Shown here: in pieces, positions 28,366-48,067 of the stretch
Layout: each line of letters starts with the position of its first letter
Position numbering within the stretch: position 1 is the stretch's first letter
DNA from: Caulobacteraceae bacterium
Lineage (GTDB): Bacteria > Pseudomonadota > Alphaproteobacteria > Caulobacterales > Caulobacteraceae
Direction: 5' to 3'
DNA: 64,000 bases
NCBI GenBank assembly: GCA_019748095.1
Contig: JAIEQA010000032.1
Location: 1 to 64,000, forward strand
Notes under the pieces: generated by a model
What the model was told of the DNA's origin: nothing
What the model saw: only the letters and a program-made list of their open reading frames with translations
The model's database searches: none
Made by a program: the position numbers and the translations under genes

Positions 28366-29196
28366 TCACGCTGCGAGGCGACGCCGTTCGCGCCCCACGA
28401 CTTCCTTGGCCAGCCGCAGATAGGCCTGGCTGCCGGTGCATTTCAGATCATAGATCAGGACAGGCTTGCCGAATGACGGAGCCTCCGACACCCGCACATT
28501 CCGGGGAATGACGGCCTCATAGACCTTGTCGCCGAAATGGGCCCGGACGTCCGCCGCCACCTGTCCCGACAGGGCGTTGCGGCGATCGAACATGGTCAGG
28601 ACCAGACCCTGGATCTCCAGCGTCGGATTCAACGATTGACGCACCATCTCGATGGTCTTCATCAACTGTGTAAGCCCCTCGAGGGCGAAGAACTCGCACT
28701 GCAGCGGGACAAGCACCCCGTCGGCCGCCGCCATCGCGTTCAGCGTCAGCAGGTTCAGCGACGGCGGACAGTCGATCAGCACATAGTCATACGCGGTATG
28801 GCCGTCCTGCCCCTGCGCGGCCAGCGCGTCGCGAAGCCGGAACGACCGGCGATCGGCCTGGCTCAGTTCGATCTCGACCCCCGACATGTCGTGATCGGCC
28901 GGGATGATATCCAGCCCCGGCACCGCCGTCTTCACCGCCGCATCGTGAACCGACCGCCCATCAACAATGACGTCATAAATGGTTATCCGACGTGTTTCAC
29001 GTGGAACACCCAGACCGGTCGAGGCATTGCCCTGCGGATCCATGTCCACGATCAGCACCTTCTCCCCGATCGCGGCCAGGGCCGTGCCCAGATTGATCGC
29101 GGTCGTCGTCTTGCCGACCCCGCCCTTCTGGTTCGACACCGCCAGCACGCGGGGCGGCCGTCGACCGTCAGGCCGGACCGGGGATGTCTGGGTCAT
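28366..29196 (-). CDS. parA: Chromosome-partitioning ATPase ParA
   Basis: VLAVSNQKGGVGKTTTAINLGTALA, VDMDPQGNASTGLG, DCPPSLNLLTLNA. Confidence 0.97.
   Translation of the reverse strand: MTQTSPVRPDGRRPPRVLAVSNQKGGVGKTTTAINLGTALAAIGEKVLIVDMDPQGNASTGLGVPRETRRITIYDVIVDGRSVHDAAVKTAVPGLDIIPADHDMSGVEIELSQADRRSFRLRDALAAQGQDGHTAYDYVLIDCPPSLNLLTLNAMAAADGVLVPLQCEFFALEGLTQLMKTIEMVRQSLNPTLEIQGLVLTMFDRRNALSGQVAADVRAHFGDKVYEAVIPRNVRVSEAPSFGKPVLIYDLKCTGSQAYLRLAKEVVGRERRRLAA
28993..29008. promoter_or_regulatory. parS-like ParB binding site (1 mismatch), inside parA
   Basis: TGTTTCACGTGGAACA versus consensus TGTTTCACGTGAAACA. Confidence 0.85.
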
Positions 29197-31737: not shown

Positions 31738-31753
31738 TGTTTCACGTGAAACA
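31738..31753. promoter_or_regulatory. parS site (perfect palindrome) between mnmG and mnmE
   Basis: TGTTTCACGTGAAACA exact. Confidence 0.97.
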
Positions 31754-33483: not shown

Positions 33484-33499
33484 TGTTTCACGTGAAACA
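33484..33499. promoter_or_regulatory. parS site (perfect palindrome)
   Basis: TGTTTCACGTGAAACA exact, 11 bp upstream of the 33239-33472 gene start. Confidence 0.97.
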
Positions 33500-35682: not shown

Positions 35683-36791
35683 GCGGCCCGCTGTTCGGCC
35701 TGGAACGGACAGGCCTTCCAGCGTCCCTGACAGCCGGGCCCGGCCGGAGCCGTTCCGGTGCGGTCGAGACTCTGGACCACCGCCTCGCCCAGGGCCCCGA
35801 TGAACAGATCGGCGATCCCGACCGCCGGCACCCGCAGATAGGGGTGAACCCCGGCCTCATGGGCCAGTTCGCCGTATTCGATATCCAGCTCGACCAAGGT
35901 CTCGATATGCTCGGACACAAAGGCGATCGGTGTGACCACCAGACCCACCCCGTCCGCACCGGCCGCAAGAATGGCGTCCGGCGTCGAGGGCCCCAGCCAT
36001 TTCAACGGTCCCACCCGGCTCTGGTAGCACAGCAGCCAGTCGCTCAGACCCGCCAGCTCGGCGACGGCCGCTACCGTCGCCTCAACCTGTTCCTGATAGG
36101 GATCGCCGTCCTTGTGCACCAGTTTCTCGGGAATGCCGTGGGCCGAGAACAGCACCCGGACCGGTCGACCCGGATAGTCACGCTCGGCTACGGCCAGCTG
36201 GTTGCGGATGCCCTCGGCCTGGGCCGCGATCCAGCCCGGTGCCCGGGGATAGCAGCAGATCGCCCGCACCCTGCCGGGGCCGGTGTAGGCGGCCTTCCAC
36301 GCCTTCAGCGACGACTGGGTCGTGGTGGTCGAGAACTGCGGATAGAGAGGCAACAGGACGACCTCGTCCGGCGCATAGGCCGCCACCGCCGCTGCGGCCT
36401 CCTCCGTCATCGGATGCCAATAACGCATCGCCATGAAGCTGCGCACCTCATCATCCGGCAGGAGCGCGGCCAGACGCGCGTCGAGTGCCGCCATCTGGGC
36501 CCGGGTCTCACCCTTCAGCGGCGATCCGCCATTGGCGTCCATCTGGGCATAGTTGGCCTGGGCGCTGGCCTCGCGCCGCGACGAGATCAGTTTCGCCAGC
36601 GGGGTCCGGAACAGACCGGGCAGGCCGATGATGGCGGGGTCATTGAACAGGTTGAACAGGAAGGGTCGGACGGACGCCGCGTCGTCCGGCCCTCCAAGGT
36701 TGAACAGCACGACGGCTACGCGGCGCGGTCCCCGCTCCGCGGCGGGAGTCGAAGGCGCTTGGATCGCGGCCGTGCCGGCGTTGCGGCTCAT
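35679..36791 (-). CDS. hemH: Ferrochelatase
   Basis: VAVVLFNLGGPDDAASVRPFLFNLFNDPAII, LLFSAHGIPEKLV-type motif (VLFSAHGIPEKLV), ITPIAFVSEHIETLVELDIEY; start MSRNAG overlaps hemE stop. Confidence 0.95.
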   Translation of the reverse strand: MSRNAGTAAIQAPSTPAAERGPRRVAVVLFNLGGPDDAASVRPFLFNLFNDPAIIGLPGLFRTPLAKLISSRREASAQANYAQMDANGGSPLKGETRAQMAALDARLAALLPDDEVRSFMAMRYWHPMTEEAAAAVAAYAPDEVVLLPLYPQFSTTTTQSSLKAWKAAYTGPGRVRAICCYPRAPGWIAAQAEGIRNQLAVAERDYPGRPVRVLFSAHGIPEKLVHKDGDPYQEQVEATVAAVAELAGLSDWLLCYQSRVGPLKWLGPSTPDAILAAGADGVGLVVTPIAFVSEHIETLVELDIEYGELAHEAGVHPYLRVPAVGIADLFIGALGEAVVQSLDRTGTAPAGPGCQGRWKACPFQAEQRAA

Positions 36792-37825
36792 TGGGCTCCG
36801 AGGCGTTTCAGGACCTGCTCGACGTGAGCGATCGGCACGTCCGGCAGGATGCCGTGGCCCAGGTTGAAGATCCATGGACCGGCACCCCATGCCTCCACAA
36901 GCTGGTCGACCCTGCGATCCAGCGCCGCACCGCCGACCCGCAGCAGCAGGGGATCCAGCGCCCCCTGGATCGGCTTGATCGCCTGGACCTCCCGGCCCCG
37001 CTGCAGCGAACAGGCCGTGTCCAGCGCAACGCCCTGCACATCGACCTCACGGGCGTACTGTGTCGCATGCAGGGCTGACCCGCGCGGAAAGCCGATCAGC
37101 GGCACCGTCACGCCCAGTTCCCGCACCCGCGCCACCAGCGCCTGATGGGGTTTCAGCACCAGCCGTTCGAACAGATCGTCCGGGAGACCCTCAGCCCAGC
37201 TCTCGAAGATCTTGAGGGCATCGGCCCCCGCGTCGGCCTGCATCTTCAGATACCAGGCGGTCGCCTCGACCAGCACCGCCAGAACCGCATCGACCTTTTC
37301 AGGCTCGGCATAGGCGTAGGACCGGGCCGTGGCCCGCTCGCCCTTGCCAATCGTATTGTGATGCCCGTCCAGCATATAGGTCGCCACCGTCCACGGCGCG
37401 CCCGCAAAGCCGATCAGGGCCCGCTCCGGCTCCAGCTGGCTACGCACCAGGCTCAGGGTCTGGCCCACCTGATGCAGGTGCTGGCCGGCCCCCTGCGCCA
37501 GCTCCCGCATATGCTCCACCGACGGCATCAGTCCCAGCCGGGGCCCCTCACCGGTCTCGAACCAGACGTCCTGGCCCAGGGCCTGGGGGATCAGCAGGAT
37601 GTCGGCAAACACGATGGCTGCGTCGAACCCGAACCGCCGCATCGGCTGCAGCGTCGCCTCGGCCGCCATCTCCGGGTTCAGGCAGAAGGCGATGAAATCC
37701 GGAGCCTGCGCCCGCAAGGCCCGATACTCGGGCAGATACCGTCCTGCCTGCCGCATGAACCAGACGGGCGGCCGGGCCAGGGTCTCGCCCTGAAGGACAC
37801 GGATCAACGACGGCGTTGTGCTCAT
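36788..37825 (-). CDS. hemE: Uroporphyrinogen decarboxylase
   Basis: PVWFMRQAGRYLPEYRALRA, GFAGAPWTVATYML, FNLGHGILPDVPIAHVEQVL. Confidence 0.97.
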   Translation of the reverse strand: MSTTPSLIRVLQGETLARPPVWFMRQAGRYLPEYRALRAQAPDFIAFCLNPEMAAEATLQPMRRFGFDAAIVFADILLIPQALGQDVWFETGEGPRLGLMPSVEHMRELAQGAGQHLHQVGQTLSLVRSQLEPERALIGFAGAPWTVATYMLDGHHNTIGKGERATARSYAYAEPEKVDAVLAVLVEATAWYLKMQADAGADALKIFESWAEGLPDDLFERLVLKPHQALVARVRELGVTVPLIGFPRGSALHATQYAREVDVQGVALDTACSLQRGREVQAIKPIQGALDPLLLRVGGAALDRRVDQLVEAWGAGPWIFNLGHGILPDVPIAHVEQVLKRLGAQ

Positions 37826-38328
37826 GTCTTGGCTTTACGGGGCGAAAGCGCGGTCCTCAAGCCCGCACTCTTCCTCTTGTTCTGATCAAGAATCATAAAA
37901 GGAATGGAAGCAGACAGCAGGGGGCGGGATCGTGGGGACAGGATGCTGTCCGTCCTCCCCGCGATCGCACTTATCCCGGCCCCGGGCGTGAAAGCCGGGA
38001 CACGGCGCAGGGCCCTGTCGAAACCGGGGATAATCCTTAACAAAACCCTAATGGCCGGGCTCCGGGCCTGACCTCGACCCCGGTCAACGCCTGGGGGTCG
38101 TTTACCCTTTGTTAGGATTTCCCCATGGGCAAGCGCGACCCCGTTGCGGCCGGGGAAGAAACGCACCCCGGCGTGCCGATCATCCCCGCCTGTCCCCGCT
38201 CGCCCGGGGCGATGGCCCGCGCTATAGAAATCCATGCCCCGCCGACGCGCTGCGGTGCCCCGTCCGATCCACAGGATAACGCCCATTCCCACCCCCTCTG
38301 ACGCTTCTGTCCCCCCGGGACGTCGGGC
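37826..38328. other. Putative chromosomal replication origin (Cori-type) between hemE and ppsR
   Basis: hemE/ppsR divergent intergenic region; AT-rich tract 37870-37909 with GANTC (GAATC, 37890-37894); CtrA-like TTAA-N7-CTAA at 38037-38051 and TTTA-N7-TTAG at 38101-38115; DnaA-box-like TTATCCCGG (37971), TTATCCCCG (reverse, 38025-38033), CGATCCACA (38265-38273); polarity switch. Confidence 0.85.
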
Positions 38329-39198
38329 ATGAGCCCCGCCCGCCCCGCCGGGGCCTCGCGCCTCGCCACCTATTTTCATGTCCATCTGGTCTCGGATTCG
38401 ACCGGCGAGACGCTCAACGCCATGGCCAAGGCGGTCACGGCCCGCTTCGATGGCGTGATCCCGATCGAGCACATCTATGCGCTCGTCCGTTCCGACAAAC
38501 AGATGGACCGGGTCCTCGGCGAGGTCGCCGCCGCGCCCGGCGTGGTCCTGCACACCATCGTCGACCGGGAGCTGCGGGCCCAGCTGGAAGAGGGCTGCCG
38601 GGCCCTCGACATGCCCCATATCGGCGCGCTTGATCCCCTCGTGGGGGCCCTCTCCCGCTATCTGGGCGCGGCCCTGTCGACACGGGTCGGGGCCCAGCAC
38701 ACCCTCGACCACGACTATTTCAACCGCATCAGCGCTCTGGACTATGCCATGGCCCACGACGACGGTCAGGGCACGGCCGAACAGCTGGAGGGGGCCGACG
38801 TCGTTCTGGTCGGCGTCAGCCGGACCTCCAAGACCCCGACCTGTATCTATCTGGCCCACCGCGGCGTGCGCGCAGCCAATGTCCCCCTCGTCCCGGGTCA
38901 GGAAGACGGCGAACGGCTGGTCGGTCTGAAGAATCCCCTCGTCGTCGGCCTGACCGTGTCGCCGGACCGGCTGGTCCAGATCCGCCGCAACCGCCTCGAG
39001 GGTCTGAACGCCACCCACGCCTCGGCCTATGTCGAGCCCGATGCGGTCCGCGATGAGACGATCAAGGCCAAACGCGCCTTCGAGCGCCGGGGCTGGCCCA
39101 CCATCGACGTCACCCGCCGGTCTGTGGAAGAAACCGCGGCCGCCATCCTGAACCTGCTGACCGAGCGGCGGTCCCACCGTGTCGGAGCCTCATGGTGA
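38329..39198 (+). CDS. ppsR: Pyruvate, phosphate/water dikinase regulatory protein (kinase-pyrophosphorylase, DUF299)
   Basis: FHVHLVSDSTGETLNAMAKAV, DVVLVGVSRTSKTPTCIYLAHRGVRAANVPLVPG. Confidence 0.92.
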   Translation: MSPARPAGASRLATYFHVHLVSDSTGETLNAMAKAVTARFDGVIPIEHIYALVRSDKQMDRVLGEVAAAPGVVLHTIVDRELRAQLEEGCRALDMPHIGALDPLVGALSRYLGAALSTRVGAQHTLDHDYFNRISALDYAMAHDDGQGTAEQLEGADVVLVGVSRTSKTPTCIYLAHRGVRAANVPLVPGQEDGERLVGLKNPLVVGLTVSPDRLVQIRRNRLEGLNATHASAYVEPDAVRDETIKAKRAFERRGWPTIDVTRRSVEETAAAILNLLTERRSHRVGASW

Positions 39199-44508: not shown

Positions 44509-44934
44509 ATGACTTCCGTTTCCGGGCGCGCCCTCGAGCGCCTCGTCTACCGCAGCGATTCCCTCGGTGTGGCCGAGGGCCCGGTGGATCTGTCCGCCAT
44601 TGTCTCGACCTCCGTGCGCAACAACGGCCGTCGCAAGATCACCGGGGCCCTCGCCCATGAGGCCGGAACCTTCGTCCAGGTGCTGGAAGGCGATGCCGAA
44701 GCCCTGACCGCCCTGATGGAAACCATCGAGCTGGACGACCGTCACCGCAATGTGCGGGTCCTCGCCCGCTGGCCGGTCCAGGCCCAGCTCTTCCTCGGCT
44801 GGGCCATGGTGCTGGTCGACACCCGCAGACTGTCGCCCCATCTGTCCAAACTGGTGTCCCAGACCGGTTCGGGGGCCCAGGTGACGGGGGTCCTGGCCGG
44901 TCTGGCCAATGCCCGGCTCGGCTCGGCCGCCTAG
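44509..44934 (+). CDS. Standalone BLUF-domain blue-light photoreceptor
   Basis: LERLVYRS...ILSTSVRNNGRRKITGAL-type block (IVSTSVRNNGRRKITGALAHEAGTFVQVLEGD), RHRNVRVL, LGWAMVLVD: flavin-contacting Tyr, Asn, Gln and Trp/Met positions appear retained. Confidence 0.88.
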   Translation: MTSVSGRALERLVYRSDSLGVAEGPVDLSAIVSTSVRNNGRRKITGALAHEAGTFVQVLEGDAEALTALMETIELDDRHRNVRVLARWPVQAQLFLGWAMVLVDTRRLSPHLSKLVSQTGSGAQVTGVLAGLANARLGSAA

Positions 44935-46517: not shown

Positions 46518-47663
46518 ATGAAATCTCCGATCGCTGTCCAGTCCTCCGCCGTTGGGCGCAATGCCATCGTCGTCATTGCTGTCGTGGCGGCCGGGGCGGC
46601 GCTTTACTGGCTCCGTGACATCCTGACGCCGCTCGCCATGGCTATTTTCCTGATGATCATGATCGATGGGGTGAAGCGCTCCATTGAGCAACGCACCTCG
46701 CTGCCTGATCACTGGGCAGGCGTTGCGGCTGTACTGTTGGTCGTCGTCGGCTTTTTCGCCGCCATCGCTTTCATCGTGAACGGGGCCGCCGGCTTTTTCA
46801 CCGATATGTCGGGGATATCGAGCGGGATTGGCCCGCGCATTGACGCCATCATTGAGGATGGCGCGCATCTTGTGGGCATGGAGGCGGCCCCCACCGCCCA
46901 GGAGTTGCTGGCGGGCATCGACCTGCGGGGCTACCTCACCAGCCTTGCCTTCCAGATGCAGGGCGTGGCTTCCGGCTCCTTTTTTGTCCTTGTCTACCTC
47001 GGCTTCCTGCTGGCTTCCCAGGTCGGGTTCAGGCGCAAGATCGTGGCCATGTTCCCCCAGCGTGAGCAGAGGGCTGAGGCCCTTGGGGTGTTCGAGAGGG
47101 TCCGCGGTGGGGTTGAGGGCTATCTCTGGGTTCAGACCGTGACCGGGGTCATGATCTGCGCTGCGGCCTGGATCCTGATGCGGGTCGTGGGGCTTGAGCA
47201 CGCCGAGTTCTGGACCTTCATCATCTTTGTGGTCGGCTTCATCCCCGTGCTTGGCGGTGCGGTGGCCGGTCTTGCCCCGCCGCTGTTCGCCCTCGTGCAG
47301 TTTCCCACCTACTGGCCCGCCCTGATTCTGCTGGTCGGGCTCCAGACCATCCTTTTTGTCGTGGGGAATATGGTTCAGCCGCGCATGCAGGGGGACAATC
47401 AGAACATCGATCCGGTGGCCGTCCTTCTTGCCCTCGCCCTGTGGGGCAAGATGTGGGGCGTGGTGGGGATGTTCCTGTCAACACCGCTGGCTGTCATGGC
47501 CATGGCAATTCTCGCCGAGTTCAAGGGGACGATGTGGATCGCGGTTCTCTTGTCCGGTGACGGCAAACCCTATGCGGCCGAGCCGGAAGAGGCGTCGCAC
47601 CGTCCGCCGGCCCGGCGCCCTGCCCGCGTCAAACCGCCGCGGCCCGAGGCTGCAGAACCCTGA
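46518..47663 (+). CDS. AI-2E family transporter
   Basis: Polytopic 381 aa; ILTPLAMAIFLMIMIDGVKR, GFIPVLGGAVAGLAPPLFALVQF, VGNMVQPRMQG. Confidence 0.88.
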   Translation: MKSPIAVQSSAVGRNAIVVIAVVAAGAALYWLRDILTPLAMAIFLMIMIDGVKRSIEQRTSLPDHWAGVAAVLLVVVGFFAAIAFIVNGAAGFFTDMSGISSGIGPRIDAIIEDGAHLVGMEAAPTAQELLAGIDLRGYLTSLAFQMQGVASGSFFVLVYLGFLLASQVGFRRKIVAMFPQREQRAEALGVFERVRGGVEGYLWVQTVTGVMICAAAWILMRVVGLEHAEFWTFIIFVVGFIPVLGGAVAGLAPPLFALVQFPTYWPALILLVGLQTILFVVGNMVQPRMQGDNQNIDPVAVLLALALWGKMWGVVGMFLSTPLAVMAMAILAEFKGTMWIAVLLSGDGKPYAAEPEEASHRPPARRPARVKPPRPEAAEP

Positions 47664-47794
47664 CCCTGCGACCTTGAAGGGGCATTCCGGCTTCCCATCT
47701 GGATCCCAGACGCAGCGGCCTACCCTCCCCTCCCCGGGCCGCCGCGGCTTTGGACCTGCGCCCATTCCCCCCTCCAGCGCGGGTCCTCAAGAGA

Positions 47795-47824
47795 GGCCGT
47801 CGGACGCCCGTCCGGCGGCCTTTT
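47795..47824 (+). terminator. Intrinsic terminator
   Basis: GGCCGTCGGAC-GCCC-GTCCGGCGGCC followed by TTTT. Confidence 0.85.
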
Positions 47825-48067
47825 CTCTACCCTCCGGCTCCGCTCAGGAGTCGGGCCGAATGATCCGGGAAAGCTGAATGGTGACGGCGGGAATTTCCGG
47901 CGGGCGAAGGCCGGTTTGTCGCATATCCCCTTCCCGAGCGCGTCTGCCCGGCCTATCCAGCGCCAAGAGGTCGGGCGCACCCGTTCGGTGATCCAAATCG
48001 TAACGGACTGTCGATAGCGTCCGGTCCAGACCCGGCGGCTCCTGCCGCGCTACGCGAGACCCTGCCC

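Follow-up and report, generated by a model that had tools for sequence, protein, structure and literature searches.

A predicted Cori-type replication origin in the hemE-ppsR intergenic region of a Brevundimonas genome

The experimentally mapped chromosomal origin of Caulobacter, Cori, is bounded by hemE and the gene RP001/COG1806 (PMC1914354), and its regulatory sites have been published as weak DnaA W-boxes (TCCCCA), a G-box (TGATCCACA) and CtrA sites of the form TTAA-N7-TTAA (PMC4285127). Origins of Rickettsia prowazekii and Wolbachia also have hemE as a boundary gene, in Rickettsia together with COG1806, and combine DnaA with CtrA sites as the locus described here does; they differ from it in having canonical DnaA boxes along with IHF sites, in genomes of very high AT content, and they are predictions only (PMC1914354). 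The origin type is already known. In our search, which covered mainly openly available papers, we found no published description of a Brevundimonas origin.

We analyzed a stretch of 64 000 nt (the window) from a Brevundimonas draft genome of 3.60 Mb (contig C162 of 167), the nearest named relatives of which are Brevundimonas, two of them labeled B. subvibrioides. The sequence-only reading had placed a putative Cori-type origin in a divergent gap of 503 bp at 37826–38328, between a mostly minus-strand run of genes from parB to hemE and a mostly plus-strand run starting with ppsR. The coordinates proved exact, and the gene strands fit this description as far as dnaQ: parB, parA, rsmG, mnmG, mnmE, rho, a hemJ-like gene, hemH and hemE lie on the one side, and ppsR, maf, aroE, coaE and dnaQ on the other, with secB among the strand exceptions. 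Both Cori boundary genes are present, namely hemE (uroporphyrinogen decarboxylase; 36788–37825, minus strand), assigned from its reading frame and from hemE orthologs in the relatives' loci, and ppsR (DUF299/COG1806, that is RP001; 38329–39195, plus strand), which was found in 149 of 150 Caulobacteraceae genomes. Farther along, at 44509–44934 on the plus strand, a small reading frame resembles a BLUF-type blue-light sensor as judged by eye.

Because anatomy, conservation, Cori synteny, parS sites, rRNA operon orientation and the strand polarity of complete relatives all agree, we conclude that the hemE-ppsR gap is very probably the oriC of this chromosome and homologous to Cori, as had been proposed. 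For comparison we used the Cori features given in PMC1914354 and PMC4285127. The gap shares with C. crescentus Cori its boundary genes, orientation, size (about 0.4–0.5 kb) and AT-rich tract beside hemE, as well as weak TCCCCA-type W-boxes, ATCCACAGG near ppsR, a central CtrA site and a CTCAAGCCC block on the hemE side. However, Cori has five CtrA sites, whereas here there are two, both central and degenerate, and neither the AT-rich tract nor the flank of the G-box-like site has one; in addition, dnaA is not nearby and no IHF site is recognizable. Neither TAACGCTCTGTT (at most two mismatches) nor WATCANNNNTTR was found in the gap, although the consensus is loose and a diverged site could escape such a search; we treat the IHF site as a trait of Caulobacter Cori and not of the Cori type, which does not require GANTC either. 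The gaps of genus g30, which we assign to Caulobacter from their content, have the anatomy published for Cori. G146 and G102 each have five CtrA sites, G102 and G073 contain the IHF sequence TAACGCTCTGTT, and GATGATCCACAGG follows a CtrA site.

The AT-rich tract at 37866–37916, a likely DNA-unwinding element, was observed beside hemE as noted. The 40-mer starting at 37877 is 65% AT compared with a mean of 32% in the window (68% GC), and just two overlapping 40-mers at 16.1 kb exceed it; the AT maximum falls in the hemE-proximal third of the gap in 98% of the relatives. The tract contains the only GANTC of the gap (37890–37894). This site is real as reported, but the single copy is fewer than shuffled gaps yield, and we do not count it as evidence for an origin; in 70% of the relatives the hemE-proximal tract contains a GANTC. 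A conserved purine-rich GGAGGAAGNAGGNAGG-like block (37895–37930) lies between the AT-rich tract and the first DnaA-like box, and is possibly an unwinding element of the DnaA-trio type.

Motif search and alignment yielded a series of DnaA-box-like sites. W1 (TGTCCCCA; 37933–37940, minus strand) is the box closest to the AT-rich tract, with a majority identity of 0.88, and is followed by the weakly conserved W2 (TTATCCC; 37970–37977, plus strand), W3 (TATCCCCG inside TTATCCCCG; 38025–38032, minus strand) and W4 (TTTCCCCA; 38118–38125, plus strand). W6 (TGTCCCCG; 38191–38198, plus strand) usually has the conserved form TCCCCGCTCGC. Near ppsR, CGATCCACA (38265–38273, plus strand) is a G-box-like site with one mismatch to the Caulobacter form and without an adjacent CtrA site. 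Four TNTCCCCR matches occur in the gap where 0.30 are expected (P = 0.003), and these together with CGATCCACA bear out the DnaA-box-like motifs that had been noted; the Cori-type cluster of a G-box with TCCCCA W-boxes is present and its sites are conserved in the relatives. Between W6 and the G-box-like site, a strongly conserved GCTATAG/GCTAAG block (38219–38230) is perhaps the -10 element of the ppsR promoter. The CtrA-like motifs likewise hold up, as two sites at conserved columns. Site 1 (TTAACAAAACCCTAA; 38037–38051, plus strand) differs from TTAA-N7-TTAA at one position (300 shuffles, P = 0.037) and is perfect in relatives such as G159. Site 2 (TTTACCCTTTGTTAG; 38101–38115, plus strand), which W4 adjoins, has two mismatches, reads TTTACGTTTCGTTAA in G159 and was found through conservation. 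A CtrA site at sciP of B. subvibrioides that has been tested by mutation includes a TTAG half-site like that of site 2 (PMC7987155).

Counterparts of the gap were observed in 84 distinct Brevundimonas sequences of 437–548 bp with the same blocks at the same columns, and also in other Caulobacteraceae. TNTCCCCR occurs 1.95 times per Brevundimonas gap compared with 0.21 times in shuffles, and TNTCCCCR and TTWTCCNC are enriched about ninefold in the 84 gaps. Majority identity is 0.81 in the motif columns and 0.55 elsewhere (P = 2e-16), where the motif columns were chosen after viewing the same alignment and the sequences are related. Some of the candidate motifs are marginal in a single sequence, and it is their conservation that makes them convincing. 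In a scan for combined DnaA/CtrA clusters of 500 bp the gap ranked first in the 64-kb window and also in 0.8-Mb samples of the complete relatives G159 and G010, using TNTCCMCR, a form partly picked after viewing the alignment. The genome encodes DnaA, GcrA, CtrA and a RAMA-domain methyltransferase (a CcrM candidate), and its CtrA shares 90% identity with a CtrA sequence of C. crescentus. It could be argued that the conserved motifs only serve transcription of hemE and ppsR from divergent promoters controlled by CtrA and DnaA, with no initiation in the gap, as both promoters must fit there and the GCTATAG/GCTAAG block near 38221 is promoter-like. However, about six DnaA-like sites, an AT-rich tract and nearby parS sites exceed the needs of two housekeeping promoters, whole-chromosome polarity is centered near the gap, and the homologous Caulobacter region is the mapped origin (PMC1914354), so that we consider an exclusively transcriptional role very improbable. 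Promoter and origin functions of the gap may coexist.

Since the genome is a draft, genome-scale tests were run on complete relatives, and these bear on whether replication might instead start beside dnaA, as in many bacteria, the hemE-ppsR gap being merely a conserved divergent promoter. The dnaA gene does lie elsewhere, outside the window on contig C90, and in complete Brevundimonas relatives it is 190–750 kb from the gap depending on the species. However, its locus in this genome is without a CtrA site and has only scattered DnaA-like sites, while parS is located at the gap. Motif search found, on the plus strand, two perfect copies of parS (TGTTTCACGTGAAACA; 31738–31753 and 33484–33499) and one with a single mismatch (28993–29008), forming a cluster 4–9 kb from the gap; parS also lies near the gap in the four other Brevundimonas tested. 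Ten rRNA operons were detected in six complete relatives. All 10 are oriented away from the gap, whereas 7 of 10 are oriented away from dnaA and 3 would oppose a fork from there, although operons partly shared by descent are not ten independent trials. Searching with the SSU rRNA family overlooked operons of four complete genomes and of control genomes, and its absences are uninformative.

Strand composition gave a coarser picture. In whole-chromosome fits of GGGNAGGG polarity the fitted origin is offset from the gap by 46 kb in G010, 12 kb in G013 and 10 kb in G159, and half-chromosome fits of GC skew give offsets of 66, 142 and 50 kb, respectively. In all three genomes the gap has a better GC-skew score than dnaA; GC, TA and GGGNAGGG scores all favor the gap, except TA skew in G013, which is slightly for dnaA. 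In the same noisy genome the cumulative skew estimate lies at 595 kb, near dnaA (557 kb) and 383 kb off the gap; GC skew of G013 was dropped as an origin locator as too noisy. The cumulative minimum of G010 is +61 kb from the gap. In G010 and G013 the terminus judged by skew falls close to the antipode, and an E. coli-like dif pattern had no match in 11 genomes. The complete relatives combine a strand-bias switch with nearby parS sites, at a skew resolution of tens of kilobases. Apart from the G013 signals, skew and GGGNAGGG scores favor the gap in all three genomes, and an origin beside dnaA appears highly unlikely to us.

Within the window, the cumulative GC-skew minimum is at about 50 kb. 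The sequence-only reading had named a minimum away from about 38 kb as evidence against the gap; the minimum is indeed displaced, as are the fits of the relatives (50–142 kb), but the gap outscores dnaA in every one of them, and the measure is too imprecise here to place the origin. An origin about 10–12 kb to the right, at the local switch of GC skew and GGGNAGGG at 47.7–48.1 kb, would account for this minimum. Five copies of CCCTNCCC, that is GGGNAGGG on the minus strand, are found at 47618–48060, within a 450-bp stretch that directly precedes the NAD-glutamate dehydrogenase gene, and are matched by a cluster in G159 near 339 kb. However, only 23 of the relatives' loci retrieved contained a perM-gdh gap, at lengths of 265 to 1389 bp, and the whole-chromosome GGGNAGGG fits of G013 and G159 come back to 12 kb or less from the hemE-ppsR gap. 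Because no DnaA/CtrA cluster exists there, we do not take 47.7–48.1 kb as another origin and give this position hardly any credence. Local GGGNAGGG switches lie about 10–45 kb to the ppsR side of the gap, and in G159, the closest complete relative, the switch is about 12–17 kb toward that side. Because G159 behaves like the window, we regard the 50-kb minimum as an offset seen in a relative too, for which the CCCTNCCC cluster, by shifting the local polarity switch, partly accounts.

With the hemE-ppsR gap as oriC, the position, homology, conserved motifs and genome-scale polarity that we observed fit a likely course of initiation in which every binding and melting step is our inference. After loading on the weak TCCCCR boxes and the G-box-like site, DnaA would spread to W1 and melt the hemE-proximal AT-rich tract, and the helicase would be loaded there. 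Phosphorylated CtrA on the two central sites, which adjoin W3 and W4, would block DnaA in non-replicating cells, and ParB on the parS cluster 4–9 kb away would segregate the new origins. Several complete Brevundimonas genomes take the distant dnaA as the starting point of their numbering, and the gap provides a concrete and testable origin for the genus.

The CtrA sites of this predicted origin are degenerate in the window and closer to the consensus in most Brevundimonas relatives, 87% of the 84 gaps having a site with at most one mismatch compared with 2% of shuffles. In the 46 gaps bearing a terminal TCCACAGG box, the 40 bp upstream of this box never contain a CtrA site. Brevundimonas keeps only the two central CtrA sites, lacking those of the AT-rich tract and any beside the TCCACAGG box, a new detail of a known origin type. 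Other Brevundimonas such as G159 have the same gap and the same sites, with CtrA sites in homologous columns, whereas in 11 of the 84 gaps no CtrA site with at most one mismatch was found. Ten of these (L038, L040, L042, L049, L055, L056, L069, L075, L080 and L081) form one clade in the HemE+PpsR tree (support 0.998), to which B. diminuta ATCC 11568 and B. bullata belong. In five clade members checked, no such site was found across 20 kb around the gap. G147 and G008 encode CtrA, 90% identical, and their own gap regions (L260 and L086) are also without a CtrA site. DnaA-like sites are about equally frequent in gaps without such a CtrA site and in the others (6.0 and 6.3 per gap). These results come from a consensus search, which divergent CtrA sites could escape, and they suggest that the B. 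diminuta clade lost CtrA control of its origin in a single step. We lean slightly toward the view that CtrA control was rewired within the genus, from five sites to two central ones apart from the G-box-like site, and was lost once in the B. diminuta clade while CtrA itself was kept. If this is true, the B. diminuta clade would tie replication to the cell cycle with no CtrA acting at its origin. In Caulobacter, eliminating the origin CtrA sites gave only mild effects in laboratory culture (PMC4468827). The natural variants described here, including a clade with no recognizable CtrA site, would make the need for CtrA binding at the origin in once-per-cycle replication directly testable.
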